From assembly GCA_015680905.1 (NCBI GenBank), contig CM027377.1:28544501-28608500 (forward strand): a stretch of 64,000 nucleotides of DNA, written 5' to 3'. Shown here piece after piece: positions 1 through 41,340 of the stretch. How positions within the stretch are numbered: the stretch's first letter is position 1; every line of letters starts with the position of its first letter. This DNA is from Coptis chinensis (taxonomy: Eukaryota; Streptophyta; Magnoliopsida; Ranunculales; Ranunculaceae). The notes below the pieces were generated by a model. That model was not told the origin of the DNA, ran no database searches, and worked only from the letters and a program-made list of their open reading frames with translations. A program made the position numbers and the translations under genes.

Positions 1-608
1 ATGCTCTAAAAGGGCTGTACAACAAGCCAAGTCATTAATGTGTTCTCACTCATATTTTAAGAGAAAGGTCGAGTTTTATTGCGGTTTCTACTGTTCAACA
101 TCTTTTATATCATGCCTGTTAGATTTATGTGCATGTTATATATGTTGTGTGTGTAGTATTTTGATTGGTAGTTGTCTTTGATATGATTGCCCATACATTT
201 GTAACAATGGTGTTACACATGTAAGTCATTTGCTCCCATTTTCTTGGGATTCGAGCCAATGGGTTGTAGTAGATTTCGGTTTTAAACAATTAATTTATTT
301 GCTACATAATACTTCTGACCCTGTCTTCCAATTTGTTTATGATGCTGATATGGGAATGCCACCTAATGGGTTTACTTAGGTGGTTTTGCCCATGGTGTGA
401 AATGAATGGATATCAGTGGTATTATCTCTGTTGATCTTTGAAGTCATATTCTTGAATAATTCTTGCTTACTGTGCAGACACTGCATTGTTTCAATATTGT
501 TTTCGCAGATAACATATATGATCATGACTCACATAGCCCGTTGATATGCTTTTTTGTTTTATCTTACATGCTCAATCTGTTTGTAACACACATATTTTCT
601 TATGACAG

Positions 609-1144
609 ACATCATGGGCCTACAGTTGGTGTTATTGAATGCCCAAAGCTTCATTCTTTGAAGTCCGAGATAAGTGTTTTGAATGACTTTCCATGTGTCA
701 GCATTCCTTGCAATGCCAGTGATAGCCAATACCAGGTAATGTTACTTTAAAAAAAACTTTGGAAACAGTACCGATATCATCCAATTGCTTTTTATCCTAG
801 CTGTATATATGCTCGACATCTGGTAACAAACATTTGTAGGTTGTTCAATTTTTTGTGTTCTACAGGCACTTGGCTGGCAAATTGTGGCTGCAAAGATAGG
901 AATGCAAAGATGTGATGCATCTTCACAGCGGTTAAAAGAGAGGATTTCTCTATCAAGATATGCACATGTAATCTATTGCTATGCCTTGACATTTATATCA
1001 ATGTGGAGAGTGTTGGGTTGAATATGAACTCCAAATAACATTTAGGTACTTTTATGTTGCAGGTACCCTTGGGCAACTTTGAACTTGATTGGCTTTTATT
1101 TACAACAGATATATTTTTCTCTAGAGCATTGCATGATCAGCAAC
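609..1144 (+). pseudogene. DNA polymerase epsilon catalytic subunit fragment
   Basis: Three exons read in series. 609-735 encodes HHGPTVGVIECPKLHSLKSE and continues to CNASDSQYQ. 866-967 encodes ALGWQIVAAKIGMQRC and continues to SRYAH. 1063-about 1144 encodes VPLGNFELDW followed by DIFFSRAL. The exon borders carry AG and GT sites (CAG|GTAATG at 735, CAT|GTAATC at 967, TTGCAG|GTACCC at 1063). This matches the plant POL2 catalytic subunit of the leading-strand replicase, in the region where POLE has its (D)IFF.R.L segment. Only a few percent of a protein of more than 2000 residues is present. The donor after the last exon is lost here (CAACAATTTAGC), while the duplicated copy at 3121 keeps GTTAGC. 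It is a captured fragment, not a functional gene. An upstream exon near 478-515 is possible but was not recognised. Confidence 0.75.
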
Positions 1145-1484
1145 AATTTAGCTCCCAAAAGTCAAACCTATTTGTGCAGGTGCTATTATTTCTTCTTTAA
1201 TTCAATAAAGCTTTTTGTGCCTATATTTTCTTATCACCGGCGTATAAACCAAACTGAAGGTACAACTCTACTACTCTGTCATGGCCTTTCTTATTAAAAG
1301 ATTATTTAGTTTAACTTTTTTTTTCTAACATGCATTTTATTTTTAAGGATTTATTATGCTTCTGATGTTGGATTTCATGTAACCATAAGGAAAATATTTT
1401 TTAGGGTTAAAATTGATTAGTTAAACAGAAAAGAATTATAGAAAAATATTGTAAGTTAACCAGACAGGAATATGGGTCCATCTT
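1012..1484 (+). repeat. Direct repeat copy A (polymerase epsilon exon and intron)
   Basis: About 473 bp beginning GTTGGGTTGAATATGAACTC and ending GGGTCCATCTT. It recurs at 3071-3537 with roughly 90-95% identity by eye. It spans a polymerase epsilon exon (VPLGNFELDW) and following intron sequence. The two copies bracket the O-fucosyltransferase fragment. Confidence 0.9.
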
Positions 1485-1801
1485 ACATTTTTTGTCAGAT
1501 GTAAGGCAAACACAAAGGGTAGACTTACATTTTTTGGAGCACATTTTCCCCTCATGTGAATTACGGTTATTGAGGTTTTAAACTAGCATTTGGACGTGCT
1601 TATTGTTGTTCTTCATGCGTTGATAACATTGTCAACAATAGTTTTTGATGGGTCACTAGATATTTGTTTAGTAGTCGTGCGTCTACTACACTATCACTTA
1701 TATTCTTTGCCATTGTAGTAGTGTATTATTTCTGTATTTGCATTTGCATTATGGTACCCTAAGTCTTGACTTCTGTTAGTGTCAATATAGTGGTTTTGCA
1801 G

Positions 1802-3071
1802 ATGTCTTTGATGTTGACTACTTCATTCAAGAAATGAAAAACTACATTACGGTTTTGAAGATTATGCCAAAAGAGATAGCATTGAGAGAACCAGTCCAAG
1901 TGGACTGCAGCAAACGTAAAGGCCATTTTGATTACATCGAAAGCGTTCTTCCTTTGCTTTTTGAGCATCATTACATCTCAATTACACCAGCAGCAAGCCA
2001 GAGAAGGGATATGCATCATTTGGCAATTCAACTACCAGTTGCATCAATTCAAATTTAAACTTCTTTTGACTGTCTTTGTGGATAGAATTGATAGATATGT
2101 AATTACTATAGTGCACTTTTGGTTATAGTGCTTGCCTATTGGAAAGTTTTAATTGACACTTGGATTGTCATTATACCATAAGAACTTGAATTTTTACGTA
2201 AGGTTAGTCTCTAATACTGTACGACAGTTATGACCTGTACCTCTTCTTATCAAGATATGAAAAGAGGTTTAATGGTTTTAAAGTCAACTTTCAGTTTTTT
2301 TGGGTCTCCTAAAGCTTAAACATGTGACAAAAGAAAATATTGTGCTAGATGGCCATGGAAACTGCTTTCATCTTCTGATTCGTCTGAGGTAGTCTTTCAG
2401 GGTTAGGCGTTTCTTAAATCGCATATTTTCACAAGGACTTGTGTCTTGGCTGTTGAACCTTTGTTAGTTGTTGTAGTTATTTTGGGCCGATTGAAAGAAA
2501 CAAAAACACATGTATTGACTGTCATTTTGTGATCCATATGTTGGAACTCATCATTGCTTGAAAAGCTTAACTTAGTTTGCAGAAATATTGCAATGATCTT
2601 GCAGGTATCCATTGTATGCCAAGGCTGCTCTTTGTCAAGGTTGTTACAAAGCTCTTCGTCTTACTGAATCTCTAGACAAAAAGGCTCACGAGCTTTTGGA
2701 TGCCATACCCAAACCCTTTCTCTCCCTTCACCTACGCTTTGAACCTAACATGGTAGCTTACAGTCAATGTGAGTACCAGAGCCTCTCTGCTGCTTCCAGA
2801 AATGCCATTAGCTCGGGAAACCCTAGACTAGAGAGATGGCTCATATTTGGAGGAGCCGTGGGAAGTGCCCCCTGACCCCAAATGAGACAGCTTTCATTCC
2901 GACGGACACAACTATTTATTTGGCTGCTGGTGATGGTCTCATGGAAATTGATGGGTTAACATCTGTATACACTAATGTTTATACTAAATCTTCTCTCCTC
3001 AGTGGTCAGGATTTCACGAGCATGCATTGGAACACAAAAGCTGCACTGGATTATTACGTGTCTGTCAATAG
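1802..3071 (+). pseudogene. Plant O-fucosyltransferase family protein fragment
   Basis: Two exon blocks are seen. 1802-about 2010 encodes VFDVDYFIQEM, then IALREPVQVDCSKRKGHFDY, then SITPAASQRRD. 2605-3071 encodes YPLYAKAALCQGCYKALRLT, then PKPFLSLHLRFEPNMVAYSQ, and after a frame change RGKCPLTPNETA, IYLAAGDGLMEIDGLT and AALDYYVSVNS. This is the GDP-fucose O-fucosyltransferase-like family of plant Golgi type II membrane proteins, with the HLRFE..M motif intact. The donor after SQRRD is damaged, and a frameshift lies near 2820-2850 (the first frame ends at 2875). The homology stops abruptly at SVNS, exactly where the second polymerase epsilon copy begins. It is a non-functional captured piece, and the family call is firm. 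Confidence 0.87.
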
Positions 3072-3537
3072 TTGGGTTGAATATGAACTCCAAATAACAT
3101 TAAGGTATTTTTCTGTTACAGGTACCCTTGGGCAACTTTGAACTTGATTGGCTTTTATTTATAGTAGATATATTTTTCTACAGAGCATTGTGTGATCAAC
3201 AATAGGTTAGCTCCCAAAACTCAAACCTATTTGTGCAAGTGCTATTATTTCTTCTTTAATTCAATAAAGCTTTTTGTGCCTATATTTTCTTATCACCAGT
3301 GTATAAACCAAACTTAAGGTACAACTCTACTACTCTGCCATGGCTTTTCTTATTAAAAGATTATTTAGTTTTTTTTTTTTTTTTCTAACATGCATTTTAT
3401 TTTTAAGGATTCATTATGCTTCTAATGTTGGATTTCATGTAACCATAAGGAAAATATTTTTTAGGGTATTAGTTAAACAGAAAAAGAATTATAGAAAAAT
3501 ATTGTAAGTTAACCAGACAAGAATATGGGTCCATCTT
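3071..3537 (+). repeat. Direct repeat copy B (polymerase epsilon exon and intron)
   Basis: Second copy of the 1012-1484 segment. It keeps the exon VPLGNFELDW and a GTTAGC donor that copy A has lost. It is joined directly to the truncated O-fucosyltransferase exon at 3071. Confidence 0.9.
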
Positions 3538-5263
3538 CGAAGTGTTGTTGATCAAACCTTGAAATCATAATAAAAATGATGCATTTCAAATTCAAAGAGA
3601 ATAATGATTCATTGGAAAACAAGCACTTAGCAAGTGGAGAATAGATAGTTGGCTGATTGGAAATCGAACGATAATCTCATGTGAAGTTCTAGGACCGGTC
3701 GTTTCTAAATTCAGAAAGCCAAACAAGATCAATATGACTTCTATTCATAGTTCGCTTTTAAGTTCAATTGCAGCTTCAGAGGTCAGAGGCTTCTTTTGTA
3801 CATTGTGCAGTTTAAATCCGATTGAATATGTTGGTGGTGTACTGGTGTATTTGGTTGTTGCAAGTTTGTTTCTAGATAAGTTCTCGTATCTTTATTGTTG
3901 TTGCTGAGTAAAAACCTTTTCTTAAAAGTCAATTGTTCGATCAATCAATTGACATTCCAAATGTACTACTCTCTAATGTTTAATTAAAAAAGTGAGGTTT
4001 AATATGCCTGTACACAAACTATAGCTTATTATAAACGACAAATACATGGGTTTTTTGTGTACAGTTTGCATGCTTAAGTTAATTAATATTGCCTTTTTAT
4101 TTTGTGCAATGGTGTCAATTATTTTGTTTGGTTATGGTATGAAGTGCTTACTTAATGTATCTCTATTTGTGAATAGAAGCTATTATATTGTTCACTCTTT
4201 TTGTGTTCGTGAACAATATTAGTTTCAAACATGGAGGAAAATATGTGCATGCTACCAAATATGAGAACATTGTCTGATGACCGCCGTCTCCGTAGACAAA
4301 CTCATAACTAAGAGGTTAGGTTCAATTCCTTTCCCTTTCTATGTACAAAATAATTGGTTCTTTTCATTTTACTCTTTAGATATAATTTCCAGTGACTTCT
4401 AGAGGACAAGTGCTTTAGATATGACCCACCTTATATGACTTGATACAGGTAATCGCCGGTTGGAATTGAGACACAACCAAGATACAATTTTAGCTACTGT
4501 ATAATGGTGTTATACCCAAAAAAAATGTAAGATGATCCTTCCTCTCTATGTTGGATTCAGTTTGGAATTGAAAATATATATTATCTTATTAGACCATATT
4601 AGTATATTAAGAACATTTTGGTAATCTAAGTTTCAATGTTAATGGGTACTTTTAATGGGGTCACATATTGATAAACAAAGATTTTTACTTTAAAATTATA
4701 TAGCTTTAGCTATATGAGAGTGTTTGATACTTGGATGTGTTGGATCAGAATTTGGGGTACACATGAGATGAACTATGAAAGCTAATAGTCCGTAGAGTAG
4801 TTTTAGGCAAAGTAATTGGGTAATTGCGGAAAAGTTTAAAGTGAGTATTCAGGCGCAGACCCAAGTAGATTATAACCACACTAACGTTGTTTGTTCCATT
4901 GTTATCCCATTCAATTAAGTTAGTTGGTTACCTGGTTTGTTTTTTATTGTGTTGGTTTGAACTCTAAGTATTATTATATTAATTTATGTGTTATAGTTTT
5001 TATAGAAAAATCTCAATATGTTTACTAGATATATTGTTCCAATTAGTTGGTAATTCAGTTCGAATGTTTATTAGTTATGTATCTAATTACTGTTTTTGAT
5101 TAGATTTCAATGTTAAATCTTGCGTTACCCGCCTGTTGACAACAGTTAAAAAAAACAGGCATAACTAAGTTGAAAATCCTTTTGAGAGTAATGGTCAAAA
5201 GGATTTTATTGTATCTCATTCCTATCACTTCATATTTCTCATTGATTAAGTTGAAAATTGTAG
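3538..5263. other. Helitron interior, no gene recognised
   Basis: AT-rich sequence between the duplicated polymerase epsilon piece and the Argonaute4 piece. Frames are short and closed, and nothing recognisable was found on either strand. The last few hundred bases could include intron sequence of the Argonaute4 fragment. Confidence 0.5.
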
Positions 5264-5861
5264 ATGTATAAACTACTATGATTGTACAACCTGGACCTAT
5301 AGTAGACTTCCTAATTGCCAACCAAAATGTGAGGGATCCGTATCAGATTGACTGGGCAAAGGTAACCTTGGCTGTTTTTCATTATCGGGTGAGTGGTTAA
5401 CAGTATCTTGCCACTTTAATGCCTTTGGTTTTGTCTTTGTTAACAGGCTAAGAGAACACTCAAAAATCTAAGGATAAAGGCAAGTCCCTCTAATATGGAG
5501 AACAAAATCACTGGATTAAGTGAGCTTCCTTGCAATCAGCAAACGTAAGCTCTTAATGAGCTTTATTTTATGAACTTCTTGATCAAACAATGTGAAAATT
5601 GTACAGACCGGTTGATATTGTTGTGTACTTGATGATCTATCTTGATTAAACTTCAGCATTTTATATATTTTAATGTGCCTTTGTAGATTCTCATTGAAGC
5701 AGAGGAGGGATGAAAATGGGGATGAATCTGCTGAAGTAACAGTCACAGTGTATGATTATTTTGTGAAACATCGAAATATTGAGTTGCGTTTTTCTTCCAA
5801 TCTGTCGTGCATTAATGTTGGGAAACCGAAGAAACCAACTTACATACCACTTGAAGTGAAT
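5264..5861 (+). pseudogene. Argonaute4-like fragment (PAZ region)
   Basis: Three exons with clean splice sites. 5264-5361 encodes TTMIVQPGPIVDFLIANQNV and RDPYQIDWAK. 5447-5544 encodes AKRTLKNLRIKASPSNMENK and ITGLSELPCNQQT. 5687-about 5858 encodes FSLKQRRDENGDESAEVTVT, then VYDYFVKHRN, then LSCINVGKPKKPTYIPLEV. This is the L1-PAZ region of the AGO4/6/9 clade, which binds the 3' end of 24-nt siRNAs in RNA-directed DNA methylation. One stop codon lies near the start of the first exon, in place of a serine (5270-5272). Homology ends after PLEV, before the MID and PIWI domains. Introns are retained, so capture was at the DNA level. It is not a functional Argonaute. Confidence 0.88.
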
Positions 5862-5864
5862 TGA

Positions 5865-8060
5865 AAGCTCTTTTACTTTGGTGTATCAATAGGTCACTTT
5901 TGTAGTAATGTGATATACATACTCTCATTAAGAATTCTTCATTGTAAAAGGTCGGCTATCAATTGAAACGGCTTGAAAGGTCAAGCAGTTTAAAATATCA
6001 GCTTCATTGTATAATTTTCAACAACAGTTTACAAGCTGCTCTGCTGGTTTTTTACCACTAACATTTTTCCCTTCTAATTTTAACACAACAAAAAATTAGT
6101 GTACGTTCGTTAGTTGCTATGCCAATGTTTTCATTAGATTGTATGTTTTTGGACTTAAGTTGGTTTAACTAGAATTCATTCCCTTTGAGACGAAGTCTTC
6201 ATTGGCAGTTAACATACATAGGTAGAAGTCAAATTTATACATCACCCTATCTAGCTACCCTCTCGTTTCTTACCCATTTCATTTGAAGACACCAATAGAG
6301 ATAAAGAATTGTTCAAAATTTTGGCAGCACTGCAAGCAAAGACTGCCTACTAAGCTACACGTTTTAGCTCACAAAAGTAAAACCAACCGCAGTTCTCAAA
6401 TCCTATAAATACTCATCTGAACAACATGAACTCTTCATCTCATTTCATAGCTCAAAGACTTCAAATCTAACAGTAGTAAAAAAAAATCCATCTCCTTCAA
6501 TATCTGTCCTCTTGAATACTTCAACTTTATTGTTTTATTGTTACAATGAAGAATACATTGATCATTTACATCTACGTGAAGAGTTCTTTCAACACCATGA
6601 AACTTTTCAAGCCGTAAAGGAATCGTAACCTCTCTTACTTTCATTCCAGTGTATGTAACTCCCATCAAAAACTTGGAGCCTCTCACTTTTGGCATGGTTA
6701 TATCGAAAATCATAATATGAAACATAAATAGTTGAAAATATCCATTGTTTACTTATTTGTTGTGGGGTCCTAGGGAATAGAAAGTACATAAAAAAAAAAA
6801 GATTTGCCAATACGCTTAGGTTCCAGTCTCATTATTTCCTTCTTGCATGTGTAAGTGTGATGTAGTTTGTTTATTTTTTACACTACTATAAATAAACTTA
6901 CTTTTTATACTATTGTTTTCTGTTGCCTTAAATTTTCTTCAGTCATGGAATCAAACGATAGTCAAGTTATATCTATGGTGATTTTTTTTTTTAACATGGA
7001 GACTCTTTATTTTGACTCCAGAGTACTAAATGATAAGAAACCAATGTATGGAAGATAACCTCATTTTAAGACATTTGTAGATGAGGTCTTTATTCAACAT
7101 GGCACCTCTGACATACAGAAGTTCCATCTATTGGAAGCAATAGTAGAGTTTTTAGTACCAGTCCAACAATTTTTTTTTTTCGAAGAACACTACCATTTTT
7201 CCCAGTACACCAATCTGTATTATAGGTGTTTCTATAATCAAATTGTTACCGCTTGACAAAATGTTTCTATAATCATCTAGGCATAGCATAGTGATTATGC
7301 CCAATGGATCACGCTTATAATGCCTCTGCACTCCTTCATCGTGCACTCTGCACCTGCTGCTAACTAGCTACTCAATCATTACACTTAATTTGACTCTCAA
7401 ATAACCAACATTCAATTGCATTATGTTATCAAGTTGAAGTCGAAAACCTGCCAAAGTTCTGCATGTGGAGTTGGGTGCGTGCTAATAACATTTTCAGAAT
7501 GGGGACCAACAACCAATGTAAGCATTCAGCGATGCAACTAGCTAGCATCCATAATTTCTTCCTTTTGTCGTCTCCATACAGATGGATTGAAAAAAAACAA
7601 CACTCTATCATTTGAATCATTCAATCTCCATACACATGAAATAAGACCCACATTATATTGAAAGCTTTTAAATTGTAATCTTGCCACATAAGTATCTTCC
7701 AGAAAGCTATTATTTACACATTCAATTCACTCCAACTATTAACATTGTCCAATGCATTTTTTCTAATTGTTTCTAAATAAATAAATCAAAATTGTTTTTT
7801 TAAGCTAGCTACAAAATCTTTAACGCATAAATCAACAACCCATATATTCACTTTCGATGGTCCAAGCTACCTACTTATTTAAACCAACAAAAAAAAAAGA
7901 GCTAATGGTACAACATCAAAAATCAAATCGAACAAAGAATACAACTAGTGTATTGAAGTGTTTTTTTCTTTATTGAACTTTTTAATTTACTATTCTAATT
8001 TACATGCTTTCATTCATTTTCCTAATTTTTTAATTAAAAAGAGAATAAAAATAGGGGTGT
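5865..8060. other. Helitron 3' portion without recognised genes
   Basis: Short closed frames only. From about 7500 onward the sequence aligns with 40500-41300, including shared stretches around TCCATACA.ATGGATTGAAAA and TCATTTGAATCATTCAATC, which places it in the same Helitron family as the element ending at 41340. Nothing protein-like was recognised in 6435-6810 on the minus strand. Confidence 0.5.
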
Positions 8061-8103
8061 TATATTCTTTCCTAGCATCGCAACGACGCGTCTTTGGCTT
8101 TAG

Positions 8104-10211
8104 TATAATTAAAACTAAAATCCCTCATTGCATGGAATCATTAAAATACGCATCAATTATTATTCAAGCGGTCATAAACCCAACTCAATCAAAAAAATAT
8201 TTAGGCATAAATCAACATTATTCACAAATCGTTTTTGACGCCATTAACAAACCTTGGGACTTCAACAGCACCTCTACACACCACCAAACACCACCAAACA
8301 CCACCAAACATCAAATAAACAATGAGGTTAGACTAATATATATATAGTTTGAAACTAGAGTAGACTTCGCAAATGGTGTTCTCTCATTGACTTTCTCCTC
8401 TTTCTTTCCAAGTGGATGTGCCTTGTGCATGATAGATGCAAGTGCTCGATCTACGGTATTCTGTCTGTAAATCGCAAAAAATTAAACCGCGCGTGCTCTT
8501 GCATCATATGAGTGCCTCAGTGCCCTACCAAATTCTTGTTGTTGATATATGATTGAGCTACCTCCTGATTCGTCTTGCTAATGGCTAGTAGCCTAATATG
8601 TGTGAAGCGTCATAATGATTCTAATATAAAAGTCTTGTTAGAAAAAGATTGAAAATAAAAAAATGATGGATAGTGCACGACTGCACGTTATGTTTCTAGG
8701 GCGCCAAACATTCTGTAGTATGTTAGTATGTATATACGTTTGAATGCTAAATTTTCAGATTTTTTTTAGAATTGAGACTGTGTTAACTGTAAGGTAATTA
8801 AGTACATTAAAGTGATCAAACCACAAGTATTCTGTCATCCATATGACCATATACTACAGCAGCTTACAAGAAGGTGGTCACGTTTATAAGGGAAAGAGAA
8901 GCTTTCATTTGGATGTATGATACTAGATACACAAAGTTTGTTCGAGCTATTAATTGTACGCTGCCCAACTTAAATCCTTGTGTTTTGTAGCTCTGGCCTC
9001 TGGCCTCTGTATTCCTCAAAATATACTAAACAATACTTCTACCATTTTAGTACAAGAACTTATATAAGTAGTTCAAATTAATGAGCCATAAAGGAAGAAT
9101 AATATGTCTACAATAGAGAAAACCGATTTAGGAACTTAAGATATAGTTGTGAAGAAAATTGCCAATAGAGTAGTTTGACTAGCGCCGCAAGTCTGCAACG
9201 TGATGAGGAATGGTTGAGGACAAGCTAGATTTTGATCCCAAGCTAGAAATGTATGTTACCTAAGCCCAGTCTTATTAAGCAGAATAACTGAGGTTCACAA
9301 ATGGCTAGCCCAAGCGCTCAAGTCCAAGTTCAAGCCCAACGTAATTTACTACCAATGATTAGTGATGTCATGGTTTGATGGCTAGTGAAGTAGTAGAACA
9401 AGTGTTATAACCTTCTCATCACCATCAGAGCAACGTTGTAGAGTGGTTTCCATCTCAACATGATGGATGCCACCCTTAAAACAGTTTCTTCAACAGAATT
9501 TTTTCGCAAAAAATTTGTTTGATGAAGCCCCAAGTATAGCTATCAAAAGCAGCCAACTGCATGCCTGACAAAACAACTTGAAGTTTTATGGGAGAGTTCT
9601 TATGCAGAAATACCCACTGCAATCTCTACAACAAGGTGAGATACGGAGATTAATTTGCCCACGCAATTTTTTTCCATGCAATCAAGCATATATTTGAAAT
9701 TGCCAAAATTTTAACCTAGGTTGTCTTCTGGACTGACTCGTCATGGAAGCATTTGGTCGAACTTAGAATGCTCTTTAGCTGCTTATAAGCATCATTATTT
9801 ATTACAGTGCAAAGATTTAAGGTAAATTCTAATGCAGAGACTCAAGCGTCAATAGGCATCTATGCAGAACATTATCTGCTTTAGTAGTAAGCATTGGATG
9901 AGTTGTATATGGTTACATATACAAAAGAATCAGGTTATGTAAAACCTGATAGTATCCTTTTCAATCAAATTGGCGTATTCATGCAAAACCAACGGATACA
10001 AGCAAGCAATTGAAAATGACTAAATTTCATTTCAACTTCGTAAAGAATATCGTTATACATAAACAATACTACTAAGGTTCTTGTAACTAACATTGTCCTA
10101 ATTCATCATTGACCCCCTTTTGTAACAACTTATTTTGTTATATCTTGTCGTGCAAAAAATGAGGTAGATCTAAATCTATACCATATATGGCTTTTAGACA
10201 AGTTTGCCCAA
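8104..10211. other. Intergenic region and KUP7 3' flank
   Basis: No gene recognised. It contains a short CACCACCAAA-type repeat at about 8278-8311 and AT-rich sequence. The last few hundred bases before 10212 should include the 3' UTR of the minus-strand potassium transporter, but no poly(A) site can be fixed by eye. Confidence 0.45.
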
Positions 10212-13200
10212 TCAAACCATATATGTCATACCAACCTGCATGATGTTCATGTGAGGAACTGTCATATTTGCAGCCCCTGCTCTGCAGTTCCTCCTCAAGA
10301 ATGCATAAAAATAATTTATGACTAACTTCTTAATAAACCAAGAGTCCTTGCGGGCCCTCACATCCCCATGCGCGAGCAGATACGTGAATCCTGAATCCAT
10401 TGCTTCATGAAGAGCAGAAAGCTCGTATTCCAAGCTTGGGTCTTCATCAGATGACATGATACTAGATGGCAATAAGGACACTACTTCTGATGAAGTAGAA
10501 GTCCCTCCATTTCCCAATCCCTGGTGCTGCATTAATGGAACTTGAAGATCATCAACCCCAGAAACAGTGATCTCATTGTCCCTGGAACTCACGGAAACTG
10601 CGTCATCAAGTTCCATATCTGTGATGCTGTTCTCTAGTGCAAGATCTTGTGCTTCCCTTCTCAAGAACTTCTCAAGGCTCACAACCAAAAGCTGCTCAAA
10701 TGCTCGGTGGTTTTCCTTCCTTATATCTTTGTACCCGTACCTAGCAATACAACGGAACATATGATAGTCTTTTGGGCAAATCCGCCTGAACAGAAATCTT
10801 TCATCTTGAGGAACAACAGGAACTGGAACATATTTGATGCAGACAAATACAATGGTTGAATGAATTGCTGGAAGGCTCAGTAGGAAACGACCAAAGATTG
10901 AGGGAACCCCTTGGACCAACTCATTATATAGTAATCCAATCCCTGGTACTCTGACAGTTCCAAGAGTGGATCCAAGATCAAGCATAAAATCCATGGAGAT
11001 CTTTTCCCTAACTTCACTCTGGTACTTCAGTACACTTCCATAGTTCCAAATGTACATCACACAAAGGAAACAAGAAGCGAAAGCAAGAGGGAGCCACCCA
11101 CCCTCAAGGATTTTAGACAAGACGGCCGACAAGTACACGAGCTCTATTGCCCCAAATACCAAAGGGAAACACAGAGCAAGAAATAAATTTGTTTGCCATA
11201 TCAGAAGCATTACAAGTGTTACCAAGGCAGTGCTTACTATCATGACACCAACTTCTGCAATGCCTGCAAATATACTTGGGTTCACATAAGATGGTGTTAC
11301 AGAGCCAGTAATGGTGGTTTTTTTAACAGTTGAAGATAAGAAGAATGATTCACTGTCATTAACCTATCTAGAAAGAGAAGACCTACCATATGCATTGGCT
11401 ATGTCAGTGGTGCTCCTGAAAGATGCAACAACTACAATACACATGACCATCAGGAACCAATTGATGACAGGGATGTAGATCTGACCCATGAGTTTCCTCG
11501 ACGTGTGAATTACCTTTAACCTTGGGAAACACCCTAGTGCCATGGACTGCTTGATGCAAGAAAATGTCGCAGATATCATGGCTTGACTAGCAATCACTGC
11601 AGCAAGTGTGGCTATCACAAAGACAGGCCAGAACAGACTATCTGTTTGCACACAATAGCTCAAATTAAATTGTTGACATACATAGTTACGAGATCACTCA
11701 TCAGCTAAACTACTAAAAATGACAGAACTTTATAGTAGAAACTAACTTGGCACGGAATCGTAGAATATTCTCTCTGTCGAAGATGGGTGTTTCATCAGAT
11801 ATGCAGCTTGACCCATGTATGCCAAGAGAAGGCATGGGAACACCACACATGTGAACGCAATCTGTGGAGTTCATATAGAATCAAAATAAGATTTCAGAGC
11901 TGTTTAGGCTTTTTGGACCAATGAAGAAGATTATGTCGAAACACTCTAATATAAATCATGAAAAGGATAACCTGTATAGATAGCACAGAGAAATGGCCTA
12001 AATCAGCAAACATAGCTTCAGCTCCTGCAATCACACATAAGGGGCGAGATATCAAGATTTTAATTCGCTAGTATTTATGTTACAAGAGATTATGTTAGAG
12101 TTCTAAGGGACATCTCCCAAGGGGATTTCGGATCTTTTAGGAATTTTCTATTATGTAAACCCTGGTATTCTCTTATATATTGGAGTGATACAAGGCCGAA
12201 ACTAACCAAGGCCGTATCCTCTCTTTTTCTCTTTTTTCTCCAGACTTTCTTCTTCAGTAGCAACAATATATTTTTACTATCTATAAGACTATAACGCTCA
12301 TTTGTGTTTATCTTTCCTAGTCTTGTAACCAAACATTCATCTCCAAATAGAAATGGAACTTAGGTTTCAAAAAAATACAAACCTATAAACAAAAGTACTT
12401 TGAGAATAAAACCAGAATGACTACTAGCACAACTAAATTTGAGAAAAAAAGGGCTTCTCAGAAAATATATGATGTAGTATTAGCAGTTTCGGAATAAAGA
12501 AGGCCACTTACCTGTAATGCACAAAACACAACCACCAAGAGCTGACCAGGCATTTTTAGCGTTCCTCTTGAAGAAAAAATAGATGTAAGCTGGATTAAAT
12601 GCCCTTAAAACTGTAATGTCATGCATTACTATGTTGTATATTCCGATCGTTGCCAGACAAAAGAACCAAAGAGCAAGTGCAGGAGCAAATGACAAGCCCA
12701 CTTTGCTCGTCCCAAACCTCTGTATGCTAAACAATCCTATGAGGATTACAATCGAAACAATTACCACAGCATCTGCAAGAAACTAAGTTCGAATCAGAAA
12801 TAATTGCACAATTCACCACCAAGAATGGTGGCTTCCACATTTATCACGGTTGGTTTGTGGGACTTTCTCTTTACTTCCCCTTGGATATATCAGACAAGTG
12901 AATTAAGTGATACACTCGGTAGTTTTGAAAATGGTCTATGTGCTGGTTCATAGAGATAAAACCGAAAGATTAGCTAGTAGGGAAAAATTAATCAACTCAC
13001 TTGAATCAAATCCATGAATTTTACCCTGCAAACCACTCACAGCAGACATCACTGCAAAAAAACAAGGTCCAAACAGAACATTTCAATATAACTCCAAGAA
13101 TATTCATTTTAAATGTTAAACTTCTATCTTAGCAAGAAACTTTTTCTCCATAGGATGAGGAAAATCGTCCATGAAACAATTTTGCATCCACTCCCACTTA

Positions 13201-32890: not shown

Positions 32891-33060
32891 TCTTATATAT
32901 AATGGGAAAACTAGCCCCGTTTATTAGTCCTCGTATTTTTGGTTTTACCCAAACTTTTAAATCAAAAGGGTACCCAAAAGTTTCACCCAAAATTTTTTCC
33001 GCCAGTACTATTTCCGAGGGTAAATACATACTTTTGTTTATTCCCGGTTTTTTAAAGGAC
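32891..33060 (+). repeat. Helitron 5' terminal segment
   Basis: A block with AAACTTTTAAATCA and AAGTTTCACCC motifs. It recurs inside the element at 38198-38285 at roughly 80% identity by eye. Confidence 0.7.
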
Positions 33061-34682
33061 ACCCTCTTCACGAAATAAACGTATTAAAGTTTGTTTCAGA
33101 ACATTCGCACCGTTTTGCTTATTCTCCCAAAACAAAGTATTAAAGTATGAATAAGGAAAAAAAATTTGTTCGGTGTTAGATAATAGGTAAGTTCTTCTTC
33201 TTCTTACCGAACAATTGTTATCCCCTCTTCCCATCAAGTTCCAATTTCAACGAAGACTTGCAATTTCCCATTTTAAAACTAATATGTGCACAAGTGAAGA
33301 TTTCCGTTATTTTTTTTTTATTTACTGTTGTTTTCTAAACATTTCAATGGTTTATTTCTATTTCAATTTTGCTTTTAATTTTGCAATTGTTCCAGTTTCA
33401 GAATAATGCCGCGTCGTTCAATACTCTCATTCCCGTTTTAAAGTTCAGACGCACTCACGAACATGTATGCCATCTTCTATCTTTTTTTTTGTTTCCGCAT
33501 TCTCGCTCTTTTGAACCCTTTCTATAAAAGGACAAATTGGCAAATAAGAACTACCCGAGAAACACATGCACCATTTCGGTTGCCATTTTAACTTTCCAAA
33601 TTGGTGAGTGAACTCTTCAGCATGCCTTTGGCAGATTTTTTTTTCTTCAAAAACGGGTGTGTTCCTCTTCTTTTCTCTCTTCTTCATCACATGATTATTT
33701 ATTGTTTCAGAAAACATGTTTAATCACAATTGAATTTTTTAGACATATCGTCAATTCATATTTTTGTATTTATTACTCAATTATGATTATGGACCAAAGA
33801 GTCAACAATTTCTTGCTACTTGGGGAACACCGCCATATGAAACTCTCATCTTAAGGTCTCTCAGGTTCCTAATTTCTGTTTCTTAGTTATTCTCATAAAA
33901 TTCTTCACGTGCAACCAATTTTACAATCATTCCAGTATAAAGAATCTCGAAAACTCCAATTTTGTCCTTCTTAATACAAATCTCTTGGTTGTAATCGAAA
34001 TCTTTTTGATTCATTATTTGGTTGAGTTCGTTTCTGTTAGAGTCACTTAGAGGAATGCATTGATGATGCTCTTACTTCCCCCGAATAGCGTTTATTCCTC
34101 TGCTAGCTTCAATATTTGATTGTATACAATGATTCCTGTGTGTCTTCTTAACATTTAGATTTAACCCATGACTACATACTATTAATGTGCTATCTTTACG
34201 TAGTGCGCTCAGTGGCAGATTGTGTGTATTTATTCCTATACGTCTAATTTTTAAAACATTTAACCCATGCCTATCACCATAACTAATATAAACAAGTTTT
34301 TGGCTCCGCCAATGCAAAATCCGTTCTTGCATTGCTGGTCCCAATCCCAGACTAATAGCTTCGAATTTTGCTTTGAGAACGTATCTTTCTGTTTTTTCGC
34401 AGGACTGTACATGTCATATTTTACACTGGAAAAATTATTCTATGTACAACCGATCTAGCTGATGCTATGTGGATACTGGCTGGCACATTATCTGTATGGA
34501 TTCAGTAACTACATTAAATAAAAATTAAGGTTTAAGAATTTGTTCTCCTCGAAACAGATAACGTGAGCCGCCTGACTACATTTCAAAAAAATACAATCAA
34601 AGTTTGCCGCTTACGTTTCTGCATCCATGTATTTATAGATAGACTTATATCTTACTTATATTTGTATTTTTATGTATGTGCA
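33061..34682. other. Helitron interior without recognised genes
   Basis: Short closed frames on both strands with CT-rich runs (about 33640-33700). It could hold leader or first-intron sequence of the captured WAT1 gene, but nothing is recognisable. Confidence 0.4.
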
Positions 34683-35139
34683 GAAATATGTTCGTTCACT
34701 CTACCACCTACATCTTCTTTTTGCCTACTTGGCTTCTCGACCATGTTCTAAAGGTATGTAATTAAGCTACTTGGCAACTCCTTAATTGATATTCTAACTT
34801 CTCTTTGATTAGTGTAAACGTAAAACTGTTTCAATTGTATTTTCTCTTTTTAAATGTCGAGTACAGATAAAGCTCCACCACTGTCTTTTATAGCCTTCAG
34901 CAATATGTTCATGCTTTCTTTATTTGGGTCAGTTTATACTTTTCTCCTAACTTTAATGTATTCAGCCAATATGAAGTAGAAAAACTTTTAACTCTATCGA
35001 ACTTCGGTGCTTCTAAATTTAGGATTACCATTTGCTTGAACGTGTATGGCATTGCACTGCTTTACACATCCAAAACGTTGGCCGCAGTGACTGCAAATAC
35101 TATTCCCCGCTTCACCTTTTTAATGGCTGTTTTTACTCG
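34683..35139 (+). pseudogene. WAT1-related (EamA/nodulin MtN21) transporter fragment
   Basis: Exon-like pieces: about 34683-34753, then about 34868-34925 encoding KAPPLSFIAFSNMFMLSLFG, then 35022-35139 encoding ITICLNVYGIALLYTSKTLA and AVTANTIPRFTFLMAVFTR with a GTAATT donor. The YTSKTLAAVTANTIP-type segment is characteristic of plant WAT1-related (UMAMIT, EamA-domain) membrane proteins that export amino acids or auxin. The donor at 34926 (GTCAGT) and acceptor TTTAG before 35022 look usable. Only two or three of ten membrane helices are present. The first piece is in poor condition and is the least certain part. It is a captured, non-functional fragment in the element's orientation. Confidence 0.7.
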
Positions 35140-38100
35140 GGTAATTCACTTTGATCATTCTTTGGCTGCCGAAAGTGATAATTGGAAAATATCAGACAAT
35201 ATTTTAGGTTGATTGCTAAATAATTGCTCAAGACTTTTGAAAGACATAACATAGGCCCCATTAATATATTTTGAGTACATGAACTATTCACATCAAGAAA
35301 TTGAAGAGCATTAGGAGGCGCCTTTAAATAAGGTTATTGTATCGAGACAACATAATAGTATACTACAAAGAAAATTATTAATTAGGGGGGAAAAGAACAA
35401 TATTAAGTTGTCAGATTGCGCTCTTTCGGTCTTTACTACAGGCATTAACATTTAAAGTCTAACCAGATTCACTTGCCCAGACTATTTAGCTCGTCATCGA
35501 GTAGCTATAGCATAACCATTTAGAGATTGGTACAATGGTACCCGGTTCTGGATACGCCCAGTTTTGTACCAACTGCCCCTAAGTTTGTATTAGCTGGGTT
35601 TAGTGGCTTCTTAAACCACTTTACAATTTCTTTTTAGTTATTATCGTCAATTAAATGCATCATATTTCTTTTCGCCAGGGGAGAACCTAAACAAAAATGG
35701 TTAAATATCTTTGCCAAATAATGAACCACTTAAAATTAGTTTGGTGATGGATGTACACTAGCTTCAAAGTCATCATAATCAATACTATTCGTGAAGAAGC
35801 CACACAAGTTTATGTAGAGCTTGATGCACTTATTATTCTCCCCTCTTCTTTCAATGAATAAATTCTCACAATATTATTTCGCCTTGGTTATATCTTATAT
35901 GAATCCATGCAACAATCTCAATTGGAACATATTATTCGCCACTCAGGTGCTTTGTGCAAGCATTGCCAACAGATATAAATGCAAGCATCACCGTGGAATC
36001 CTAGGTTTTCTTGAAATGTTTTAGCACGTAAATGCATAATAAAATATAGAATCTTCTTTAGTCAATTTAACCAGTTTTTGGTTCACGTAAGAGGAAAGAT
36101 AAATTAATATGTTGGGTCTCCAAATCCATAATATGTCGTAGTTTGCATAAGACGCATTCTAGACCAAATCATTGACTTTGCTTATTACAACGCCCCGAGC
36201 CCTCCTTATGTATCCACTTAATAGGTTATTGTTTATGTTGTGTAAAATGCATTCCAATAGCCGTCAATGATTTGGTCCATTGTAATACAATCATATGACG
36301 GCTATTGGAATTAGTATAGTTCTATTGGCACATCATTTGACCAAATTCCCCGATATTCTCCACGCCTTAGCCTCTTCCTTTTCAACTTTATGCTAATTTG
36401 TTCAAAATAAAAGTGTCAATCCGCTGACTTTTTTTCCTTAACAATGGATTGCGACTCGCCAAGTCCAATAGAATCATTGGTGTCGCAGAGTATGGGATAT
36501 GGATTGTGCTTTCGGATCAACAAAATGCAAGGAACAATCTACCATTGGCCGCTTTCATACATATCTCTGTGGATCCATGGCAGTTCCAATATTCTAACAC
36601 CATCTCAACTATCCGAAGTTCACGGACACCATGGCGATGGCGGGAACTACAAGTTCACGCGGTATGATGTGATTAAAAATAACTGCAGCTTCACCCTCAA
36701 TTCCAACTCTAGATTTAAGTGATAAAAACCAAGATACTTGGCGGACAAGTGTTCCAATTTCTTACATGCTAGAAGGGACACAAATGCTTCCACTATGTCA
36801 TGCCTCATGTACGTAATGTGGACACTTCCCCACTTGCAAGAAAAAGGTGGTAGGAGATATTATGGAGGCAACCCACCGCTATCAATTCTTAGACAAGACA
36901 TGTTGCAATATCTTTGTGCTGCTCTATCTGAGCTTCTTAGTACCCGAAGTGTTCTGTTCATGTCTGGTCAGATGGTCGCGCCAAATGGTTTGTCGCAGGA
37001 CAGCCAGATCAAGGCGACAGTGGGAGCTTTCTCATTCTTGAAGTCCACTGATTTCAGCAGATGTTTAGCCTGGTTCTGATTCGGTTTCATTTTAGATGGG
37101 ATCTTACATCGACTCCTATTAATCACTGCAAGGATCTACAATACAGGCCTCGAAACAAAAGAGTTGTACATTTTATTATGCTAATCGACTATATTGAAGT
37201 TTATTTATTGATTTCTCGACATGCCCTCGGTGATCTCTCAGAGGAACCACCGAAGAAAAAAAATTCCTGGTACAAATAAAACAAAAATGCGAACCGCATA
37301 AGACAATCCAGATTGAAACAGCAAAAACTGAAGCAACACATGTACTCTCTCAAGAGATTAACACACTCCATCATAAAGAAGCCGCTCAGAAAATCCGGGA
37401 TGAACTGGATGATCGTTTGCCATAAACTAATGTTATCAAAAGATGTTATTCGCAAAAGTCGGGGTACAAACGTATTTAACAACATCACATTTCTCATTTG
37501 CAAAGGGTCCAAGAAACAACCGCTCTGGATTACTACCCAATCACAATCCAAAACAGGAAGAATGACTCGAGGAGAAAACGTTGCTGAACCTACATAAGAA
37601 GTAGACTGATGGACTGGCGCATTAAAGATGTAGGCTTCACAAGAATATTCCAAAGAAAAAAAAATTCAAGAAGAGATAGGCAGCAGAATCAAATACCATC
37701 TCTTCTTCGGATGGAACAAGTACTCAAATTTTATCTACGGAAAAGGTGTTGGTAAATAGAACCTTAAAGTCATCCCATCACTTTAAACAAGCCACCAACA
37801 AGAAGAAGAGAAACGCTTCAATTCATACCGAAAGTAGGCTTATTATTATGTCCAAGGTCAGCCGACTTATGAAGCAGAAAAAATCAAGTCCAAAAGAGGA
37901 TATTTTGTGATGTAAAGAACTACGTTATGAATTCTCGCTCAACCGAGCATTTGACAGGATGAATGCATTTATGAGTTTTGTTACCTATCAAAAACGAGAT
38001 TTAACATATCAAAAGTGAGATGCTCAACTTCTATTATTATGGAATTTTTCTCTTTGCTTTTGAATGCAATGTGTCTTTGGTTGGAATAATGGAATATTTG

Positions 38101-38197
38101 TTGTTACATTAGAATTACTCATAGAAGCAAATCACGCATAAAATTATTTTTCATTTATATAGGTGCTTTGTGGTAGCATGGTAGGAATACAGAACTT
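35140..38197. other. Helitron interior without recognised genes
   Basis: Mid-sized frames exist at 36444-36722, 36738-37079 and 37201-37653 (minus), but none resembles a known family. A stretch at about 37275-37420 reads as a charged, helix-like peptide (QIETAKTEATHVLSQEI) and may be another captured exon. Confidence 0.35.
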
Positions 38198-38285
38198 TAG
38201 CCACCGCTTATTTTAGTTCACGTATCCTTGGTTTTTACCCCAAACTTTTAAATCACAAGGGTACCTAAAAGTTTCACCCAATAAA
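38198..38285 (+). repeat. Internal Helitron 5'-end-like segment
   Basis: Aligns with 32917-33000 (AAACTTTTAAATCACAAGGG versus the terminal copy with AAAAGGG, then AAAAGTTTCACCC in both). It suggests an older or nested Helitron unit that shares the single 3' end at 41340. Confidence 0.65.
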
Positions 38286-39102
38286 ATATTGACAGTTTTA
38301 AATTGAAGGGTATGTTTGTCCTTCAACAACCAACGAAAAAAAAAAAAAACCGGTGACTTCTCCTTTCAAAATAATAGAGCCAAAAGACACCGTTTCAAAC
38401 CATTTCCCATCTCTTTTTCCTTCTACCATCTATGCCTTCTCCATCTCTGTTTACAAACTCCATTTTTTTTCTCCTTTGTATGATTTTTATACTCTCTCAC
38501 GAACTCCGATATTTTATCTCCATCTTTCTTTTTGAGAATTTGCATATACGACCGGCAATGGATGAGGTTAGTTTTCTCTCATTTCGCTTTTTCCATGGAT
38601 AGTATGCCTTTTCAAAACAAACACATGGCGGTATTGCTCTTTCATCACACGTAAATATTAATGGAGTGTTTTATTGGTTGGTCTTTGGATTATCCCTGCT
38701 ACCAAATACAGTGATTATGTGCAATGGTTGCTATGGAATGTGCTTGGGCCAATCGTAAGGATATTTGCATTATATTTCATCAAGTATCAATGAATTTAGG
38801 GTGTTGTCCTTTGAATGCTTGGCCTCAATAATAGACCATCTCCTTTCGTTGCTTTTATGCATTTACTCAAATAGTAACTTCGTGATTAGTCATTTTTTTT
38901 TGTAGGAGCACATCCAACTATGTGATTATTCATTTTGTTTTTATTTTTATTTACGTGGTAGGAGCACATCCAAATATCCGATACTTTCGAAGAAGACATC
39001 TCACGTAGTTTTAGGGATAGAAATAGATATCAAAGGCGGTTTCAAACACCACATTCGCCTACTTCTGCAGAAGGTATTCGCACAACTTTATTTTTAATCA
39101 AA

Positions 39103-39144
<42 letters not shown>

Positions 39145-41310
39145 TGGTTGGGGTGCTTTGTTTATTGCCCATCATTTGTGTACTTCACTGTTTTTCCAAT
39201 TTCAAGATCTCATCCACAAACACACCCTCGCGTGTACATCTTACCAACATTCGTCCGACAAAGGCTAGATACACAAACACTCCTAACAATCAACAATCAC
39301 ATGCAATTAAGTAATTTTACTTTGATTTTTTTACTATTTTCTCATTTAATCTCTCTAGTATGAGTGTTTCCTCTCTGAATAGCCGTCAAGCATATAATCA
39401 GCCTTAAATCTGTTTTAACTTATGCCCTTATAGCATGTTCTCGACCTTTTAATTAGAACTTGGGAAGTGACTATCGAATTCGCGTAGTTAGTGTCCAATC
39501 ATTGGCGCCTCCTCGTCGTTATAAACGTAATCATCATCATGCCATCAAGATTCAAACTCCATTTCCCATCATCCCATGTAGTAATGAGGAGAGCAACACA
39601 AAGGCCAATATCAAATGTGCACCCACTATCACAAAGATTCCAACTTTTCCTCCAAAGGTGCATATATGGACTATACCACGCGTGTGGATTGGATGCTCCC
39701 GCTTTGTCCGAACGAAATAATGAAGGTTCACCACCGTGAGGAGCACTATGAATTTTTATCCCGGACGTCAATGAAATATTGGCGGTTATGAATAACTTTT
39801 TCCCATTTCCCTAGGGAAACATATATTACATAAAACAAACAAAAAATAATGCATATTGCAGTTTTTCCGTATGTGAGGAATCATATAGTTTAACCTCGAT
39901 TCACAATCAACTTGCGCCAAGCTTTTGTTGGGTGTGTCATGCCTTGGTAGCTCAAAGCAAAATGGCTAAGAAAAATTAAAAAGTTTCGTGAATGAAGGAT
40001 TAGATACTCATAAATGGCATGAAACCAAACGATTACCAAATAGGGAACACCATAATGGTATTGTTAATGGAAAAGTTAATATTTTGCCTCCATTCTCTTG
40101 ACAAAACTGTTCAACGAGACTACCATTTGGCTCAATATTTATATAATTTTTCTGCATCATTGCCATTGTCCATGCTACCGTCGACCCATGTCAAGAGATT
40201 GTTCGTAGGTTAGTTAGTACTCAATATCTGAAATCAATGCTTTCATAAAATGACCATTCATCCAATGCAATCAATACACAATGCTCCTTGGAAAACCTAA
40301 CCACCACTACCAAGTACAAATCCATGTCGCCAACCAAGTCACAACGCCACCACCAAATGACCGATCGACAACAAGGTTCCAAATAAGGCAAGATTGCTAA
40401 AGTTTATTTTGAAACCATCACCGGGCTTTCTGACATCGAAAACTAACTTGAAATATTTGGAATCACCCCCAGTGATATGTTTGCTTACTCTAGATGTAAT
40501 TCAACGATGCAGCCTAGAATCCATAATTTCTTACTTCGGTGCACCTCCATACAAATGGATTGAAAAAATTCAACCCTCCATCATTTGAATCATTCAATCT
40601 TGCCACATAGCCATCTTATCGAAAAGCTATTATTCATACATTCAATTCAGTCCACATATTATATCCGGACTTAAATGTAAACGTTTCTAAATTAAAAAAA
40701 AAAATGGCTTTTTTTTTTAGCAACATTTTTCTTTCTCTCATCCAACCTACTTACTTATTTAATCGGACCAAAATATTCAACAACAAAAAAACAATTGCTA
40801 ATGAATTCGCTAGATCATTTTGAAGACAATAATAAGAAAAATGTTATTCTTCTTGCATTTTTCTTTAGATATTTTAATCTTCAGTTAAGAATACATATTA
40901 TGTTGCACAACATGATGTAGTATTCTTATATCTTACAGGTAGTACACTCATATGAATCCAACAATGTTCCTCCATCACATATAAATGCTCGACAAGAGAA
41001 TTACACAACTAGCAGCACAAAGGTGAATTTCCTCAACATAATATCTATTTTTTAGGTAAATAAGTTTGTGGTATATACAATACTAATTACATACTAGCTA
41101 AATTACAGGCAGTTAAATACATCTTCAAATATATTTATTCGCAGCATGGCAGAGCAGCAAAAATCGTATCAAACAAAAAATAAAACTAACGTATTCAAAT
41201 GTTTTTTTTTTCCCTTAATTAAAGTTTCATTAAGACAAATTTAATATATACTATTTTACATTATACATAATTCTTTCCTTTCATTTTTTCCGCCCCATTT
41301 TTCATTCCTA
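38286..41310. other. Helitron 3' half without recognised genes
   Basis: Includes a poly(T) run at about 39110-39143 and a mid-sized frame at 39460-39720 with no recognised family. The final 900 bp aligns with 7400-8060 of the first Helitron. Confidence 0.4.
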
Positions 41311-41340
41311 GCACGTGCAACGCACGTGCCCGTTTACTAG
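41311..41340 (+). repeat. Helitron 3' hairpin and CTAG terminus
   Basis: GCACGTGC AAC GCACGTGC forms a perfect 8-bp stem. It is followed by an 11-nt tail that ends in CTAG, the Helitron CTRR terminator signal. A host T follows. Confidence 0.93.

Follow-up and report, generated by a model that had tools for sequence, protein, structure and literature searches.

We analyzed a 64,000-nucleotide stretch of the Coptis chinensis genome (C1:28544501-28608500 of a 935.6-Mb genome in 116 contigs), referred to here as the window. Positions 1 to 8103 are very probably the right-hand part of a single 11.1-kb nonautonomous plant Helitron, which extends from -3015 to about 8103 and carries pieces of the genes for DNA polymerase epsilon, an O-fucosyltransferase (O-FucT), and an AGO4-type Argonaute, all on the plus strand and with introns kept. 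We refer to this element as the window copy; negative positions lie to the left of the window, with position 0 counted. The gene pieces and the sequences at the 3' end are as follows.

410 to 1232, plus strand: piece of the gene for the catalytic subunit of DNA polymerase epsilon, with its introns; matches C8:71842265-71843120 (L016) at 91%
1496 to 3070, plus strand: O-fucosyltransferase fragment with intron; matches C3:61128434-61130045, minus strand (L022), at 93%
5204 to 5934, plus strand: AGO4-type Argonaute fragment with introns; matches C5:80717813-80718541, minus strand (L043), at 96%
6020 to 8030, plus strand: 3' half common to the Helitron family; 6020-6120 and 6579-8030 are present in other copies
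8029 to 8064, plus strand: end of a host repeat, X, inside the 3' terminus of the window copy; 36 bases against 37, with one gap
8068 to 8103, plus strand: diverged 3' terminus of the Helitron, TTTCCTAGCATCGCAACGACGCGTCTTTGGCTTTAG; its final four bases may instead belong to the host
8104 to 8131, no strand assigned: host repeat X resumes, followed by a 94-base interruption (8132-8225) and by X again at 8226-8300

Pfam domain matches on the plus strand confirmed the original prediction that three gene fragments with introns lie here in one orientation. The polymerase epsilon exons (610-735, 866-967, and 1063-1179) are open and in phase and encode 115 amino acids of DUF1744 (Pfam E value, 7.6e-27); the PDB chains matched name polymerase epsilon in six of six sequences. 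The O-FucT exon parts lie at about 1801-2010 and 2607-3070, and two exons within 1801-2880 match O-FucT (Pfam E value, 5.4e-18), the second with a frameshift and a stop relative to the parent. The Argonaute exons (5278-5361, 5447-5545, and 5688-5861) form an open frame that encodes most of a PAZ domain (Pfam E value, 6.8e-21), and 27 of 27 matched PDB chains name Argonaute/eIF2C. Domain and structure matches give Argonaute; that it is of the AGO4 kind is presumed, in line with the original prediction. The matched stretch, 5204-5934, is longer than the predicted span of 5264-5861.

Viewed with 1.5 kb on each side, the match listed above for each piece looks like a likely parent and a likely intact gene. 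At C8, DUF1744 coding sequence extends a little beyond the captured part; at C3, the last O-FucT exon runs on open to a stop; and at C5, from which the AGO4 piece would have come, the match is flanked on its two sides by coding sequence for ArgoN and Piwi.

The 5' terminus of the window copy, at -3015, reads AA/TCTTATATATAATGGG (a slash marks a junction), so that TC comes directly after a host A. The same start, A/TCTTATATATAATGGG, is seen in the copy at C1:34533526-34537788, and the copy at C3:24829226 has A/TC at its 5' end. The sequence TCTTATATATAATGGGAAAACTxGCCCC is common to the window copy and to a second Helitron in the window, at 32891-41340. At the 3' end, the family has a hairpin, GCACGTGC-AAC-GCACGTGC or near, followed by CTAG/T, in all five non-self loci read on the plus strand; two further 3'-end loci were read on the opposite strand, where the end is not visible. 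The hairpin is exact in the 32891-41340 element, whose 3' terminus and CTAG are intact, unlike those of the window copy, and the C3 copy ends in CTAG/T with a shortened hairpin. The predicted kinship of the two elements in the window is thus supported by the shared 5' terminus and by the hairpin and CTAG in the second element and in family copies. Read by eye, the two ends of the element are not inverted repeats of each other, as would be expected of a Pack-MULE or another element with terminal inverted repeats.

The element is inserted in host repeat X. A search with 8020-8700 (best 40 of 143 candidate places) led to ten extracted loci, one of them the window copy itself; X is uninterrupted at the insertion site in eight of the eight loci examined (L059-L066; L067 was left out). 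In the empty site, the match to the left flank up to -3017 runs directly into 8100 onwards, CCTATTAGTATAATT; in one variant (L063), the flank match reaches -3009 and the empty site has three more bases. These loci bear out the original prediction of a 3' end at about 8103; the element is larger than predicted, however, with its 5' end 3.0 kb to the left of the window. Family matches to 7400-8103 (best 40 of 420 candidate places scored) stop at 8030-8031 (query 631-632) in 31 of 53 non-self rows, and the other 22 end earlier. An end at 8030 was considered on these grounds and dropped because the uninterrupted site puts the end at about 8103. The absence of other genomic copies sharing the end, which the original prediction had named as evidence against itself, does not apply to the family, but the last ~72 bases of the window copy differ from its family, and its last 32 bases had no other occurrence genome-wide at up to 3 mismatches.

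Several features of the 3' end and insertion site weigh against a straightforward Helitron assignment. The window copy has no clear CTRR end, reading TTAG/T instead, and the terminal hairpin is lost (altered). Its junctions, CCTATTAA/element/TATAATT, fit either insertion between A and T with one G-to-A difference in its X copy or a 3-bp TTA duplication with the element end near 8099, which places the last base of the element somewhere from 8099 to 8103. The C3 and C1:34.53 Mb copies have A before and T after their ends (filled sites only). On the right, 8132-8225 is foreign to X, and X matches end at 8300. We also observed that an end of X lies within the 3' terminus of the window copy, beside the changed hairpin; the exact string TATAACACC, the inverted partner of this X end, was absent from L059-L061 and from two stretches around the element.

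Three relatives elsewhere in the genome share parts of the element. The relative at C3:24829226-24839626 (10.4 kb) holds all three gene pieces; that at C7:76.565-76.572 Mb, the 5' end of which was not located, holds AGO4 and polymerase epsilon without O-FucT; and that at C1:34533526-34537788 (4.3 kb) joins ~780 bp of the 5' end to 4554-8030 and therefore has AGO4 cargo only. The window copy and the C1:34.53 Mb copy are closest, with 36 shared derived sites. No flank is common to the window copy and these relatives in the stretches compared, and we regard the window copy as mobile because the flanks differ; dispersed copies with unrelated flanks are what a Helitron would leave. Two observations at the C7 relative stand apart: a serine carboxypeptidase piece lies to the left of the shared part (L010 1-600, C7:76564149 on; Peptidase_S10, E value 2.7e-12), and TATCTATCTAGTAGGAACCTTAAG occurs both to the left of the copy (L055 near 3490) and directly after its 3' end.

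An alternative hypothesis is that a gene cluster was copied by nonmobile segmental duplication and that the Helitron-like ends arose by chance. A local match does exist: C1:28509000-28518674, 27 kb upstream, matches the window copy from -8480 to 1228 at 95.9%, flank included. With its many small indels and a long branch in its polymerase epsilon part, this match could be either a local duplication of the window copy's left half or an assembly artifact. However, the likely parents are on three chromosomes, and the relatives on C3, on C7, and at C1:34.53 Mb have the element in common with the window copy but none of the flanks compared, the opposite of the same spacing in a nonmobile duplication that the original prediction had named as evidence against itself. 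We rejected segmental duplication, which we consider extremely unlikely, because of these unrelated flanks and the host repeat uninterrupted in eight of eight loci. The prediction of one Helitron holding three gene pieces is supported by the 5' end, the uninterrupted site, and the dispersed relatives; these, together with the likely parents and the junction sequences, are the observed basis for our interpretation.

The O-FucT piece is set within a direct duplication of 472 bp, with a short filler at its left edge.

1012 to 1484, plus strand: 472-bp stretch, first copy, flanking the O-FucT insert
1485 to 1494, plus strand: filler; together with the CTT before it, forms a 13-base copy (1482-1494) of 1524-1536 in the O-FucT piece
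3071 to 3537, plus strand: 472-bp stretch, second copy; polymerase epsilon exon 3 recurs here and contains a stop

Beyond the O-FucT piece, the second polymerase epsilon piece (3071-3537) duplicates 1012-1484. The joint in the window copy reads ...CCATCTT/ACATTTTTTG/TCAGATGTAAGG (O-FucT) ... GTCAATAG/TTGGGTTGAATATG..., followed by the 472-bp repeat up to ...CCATCTT/CGAAGTG. The C3 relative has the same duplication structure around O-FucT, and the C7 relative has a single 472-bp stretch without O-FucT, joined as ...CCATCTT/CGAAATG. The two 472-bp copies differ by 6.0% in the window copy and by 4.7% in C3, similar to the 3.8 to 5.6% that separates the window copy from C3 in this stretch. The filler source lies about 30 to 40 bp inside the O-FucT donor piece; within the 64-kb window, the 13-mer is present at just these two places, 42 bases from each other, and it was not found in any of 100 shuffles.

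From the junctions, we postulate that the O-FucT joint is likely a template-switch scar. DNA synthesis would have left the element at ...CCATCTT and used a CTT of the O-FucT gene as its new priming site. After ~10 bases of copying, it would have slipped back by ~40 bases, then copied 1.57 kb and rejoined the element 472 bp upstream of the exit point, thereby duplicating the 472 bp. We infer that the cause was template switching in break repair of the filler-DNA type. Three points count against this sequence of events. The filler in C3 has ACG for ACA, leaving the exact 13-base match in the window copy only; a 7-base inverted repeat at the joint (CTTACAT...ATGTAAG) makes snap-back synthesis a possible source of the filler; and opposite-strand nicks with fill-in could give a similar duplication.

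The C7 relative could represent the state before O-FucT capture or a later loss by recombination, and the data lean slightly toward loss. We withdrew the reading of C7 as a certain precapture state after counting polarized sites (outgroup present for six of seven segments): 14 sites group C3 with C7, 6 group the window copy with C3, and 5 group the window copy with C7. Homologous recombination between the two 472-bp direct repeats would be expected to leave one copy with clean edges, as seen in C7. On the other hand, the window copy, C3, and C7 are nearly a star, the 3'-most segment favors the window copy with C3 (4 sites versus 2 and 2), and loss requires one extra event. We hold the chances that C7 lost its O-FucT piece in this way to be about even.

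Further modules, repeats or captured sequence, lie between and beside the three gene pieces.

1 to 414, plus strand: right part of a repeat module that spans about -365 to 414; 22 further places listed
1232 to 1428, plus strand: short repeat joined to the polymerase epsilon piece; same junction in L013-L015
3540 to 4111, plus strand: repeat module; matches at 91-92% in at least five other places, the C3 and C7 relatives aside
4112 to 5117, plus strand: captured or repeat module; matches at 90-93%, partial in some cases, in at least eight other places

For the searches with gene regions, the best 40 candidates were scored of 90 (polymerase epsilon), 155 (O-FucT), and 285 (AGO4), and copy counts are lower bounds. 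Within the O-FucT piece, 1948-2194 matches, wholly or in part, at least 35 further rows at 89-98%, from loci that are composed differently (among them the seven loci L026-L032). Two polymerase epsilon loci (L013 and L014) share window positions 410-1428, and a third (L015) shares 491-1428; all three have the junction at 1232. Neither this junction nor the 1232-1428 repeat is in the C8 parent, and given both features, independent capture by L013-L015 is not favored. More probably, the polymerase epsilon piece goes back to a single capture and was then passed between related Helitrons, with which, or via which, it would have reached the window copy; a tree rooted on the parent is compatible with one capture. 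L013 has a longer left part of polymerase epsilon than the window copy. A canonical 3' Helitron terminus lies in its region, near C4:91384549, and we infer that it belongs to the same element as the L013 piece. In L072, a further locus of this Helitron group, a peptide upstream of the 3' terminus is reminiscent of a Helitron Rep region but had no Pfam match; no full RepHel search was made. The window copy was probably built stepwise, in a presumed order, from pieces of other Helitrons and host genes.

The AGO4 piece has 13 matching places. Five are near full length (the window copy, C1:34.53 Mb, C7, C3, and the parent), four cover a shorter part, from about 5231 to 5598, and four, at 71-73%, are likely other Argonaute genes. 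The short matches are at C4:93813398 (L074), C5:98249027 (L075), C8:90242777, and C8:91228730. Over 1.3 kb, a span that takes in the AGO4 part, L074 and L075 match at 95%, and a second repeat group therefore also carries AGO4 DNA. We find it highly improbable that AGO4 PAZ exons occur in two repeat groups (that of the window copy and that of C4:93813398 and C5:98249027, with the two C8 places) because they help the elements; if it were true, small RNAs or transcripts from AGO4 fragments would weaken host RNA-directed DNA methylation.

The four AGO4-bearing Helitron copies were compared for signs of function. AGO4 exons differ more than nonexon sequence in all six pairs (17/357 versus 7/372 between the window copy and C1:34.53 Mb), and the PAZ frame has stops or a frameshift in three of the four. 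Against the parent, exons differ less than other sequence in the window copy (3.1 versus 4.3%), C7 (3.7 versus 5.4%), and C3 (4.5 versus 4.6%) and more in C1:34.53 Mb; exons closer to the parent in three of four copies are as a constrained parent would give. The O-FucT exons also differ more than the introns between the window copy and C3 (6.4 versus 4.3%).

The polymerase epsilon comparisons are mixed. Its frame is open in the window copy but broken in the C3 and C7 relatives. Between the window copy and C7, the exons are more divergent than the remaining sequence (6.7 versus 4.8%), while a reading of neutral decay is weakened by exons that differ less between the window copy and C3 (3.0 versus 5.4%) and between C3 and C7 (3.9 versus 4.6%). 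The ratio of nonsynonymous to synonymous divergence (dN/dS) is ~0.26 to 0.7 among the three pairs. Clear purifying selection was not seen in the AGO4 and polymerase epsilon copy comparisons, and the gene pieces appear to show mostly neutral decay, a reading short of proof.

One way in which the AGO4 piece could matter is by making a PAZ-only peptide that interferes with silencing, because the three PAZ exons of the window copy are open and in phase and would end in VN-stop if the third intron were kept. The broken frames in three of the four Helitron copies, the values against the parent (dN 0.029 and dS 0.040), and the faster divergence of exons than introns between copies all speak against such a peptide, and we give it next to no credence.

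The original prediction also suggested that small RNAs from the cargo could act on the parent genes. Sequence identity would make small-RNA crosstalk possible: 277 of 708 24-mers of the AGO4 piece, 206 of 800 of polymerase epsilon, and 491 of 1553 of O-FucT are identical to the parent, with identical runs of up to 144, 94, and 122 bases, respectively. In maize, small interfering RNA-linked silencing of donor genes is described in a review (PMC13317346). However, the gene pieces lie in one orientation, and inverted repeats in 1-12000 are weak (7 pairs, 25 to 43 nucleotides, 71-81%), so there is no long hairpin source; the same review holds that effects on essential donor genes may be selected against. 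We consider action in trans, in which small RNAs from the element would reach the parent gene of any of the three pieces, to be unlikely. Most likely, the cargo is neutral passenger DNA.

That plant Helitrons, for instance those of maize, capture gene fragments is already in print (PMC13317346 and PMC6544945), and the window copy is a further member of this class, notable for its duplication-with-filler scar and its AGO4 cargo. It resembles the maize elements in holding several unlinked, intron-containing gene fragments and in a family terminus of TC...CTAG with a 3' hairpin; it differs in its cargo (Argonaute PAZ, polymerase epsilon, and O-FucT) and in the 472-bp direct duplication with filler around one captured piece. 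For Helitron capture, a filler-DNA model has been described (PMC6544945), and filler DNA has also been described at repaired breaks in maize (PMC2686159). With these systems the window copy shares internal capture, short junction matches, and filler copied from nearby, two-site filler included; it differs in that 472 bp of the recipient are also duplicated around the insert. Among the titles and abstract openings of open-license papers listed on Argonaute or AGO4 cargo in Helitrons, on template switching, filler DNA, or duplication in Helitron capture, and on tandem duplication from nicks, we found no report of the present case.

With an uninterrupted site, likely parents, and relatives with and without one cargo piece, the window copy is a well-anchored case of gene capture. 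Its junctions allow one capture step to be followed, so that filler-DNA or template-switch models of how Helitrons capture genes can be put to the test, and the polymerase epsilon piece suggests that cargo is shared between Helitron groups. With AGO4 among its cargo, the element is an especially apt case in which to look for conflict between what transposons carry and the silencing machinery.

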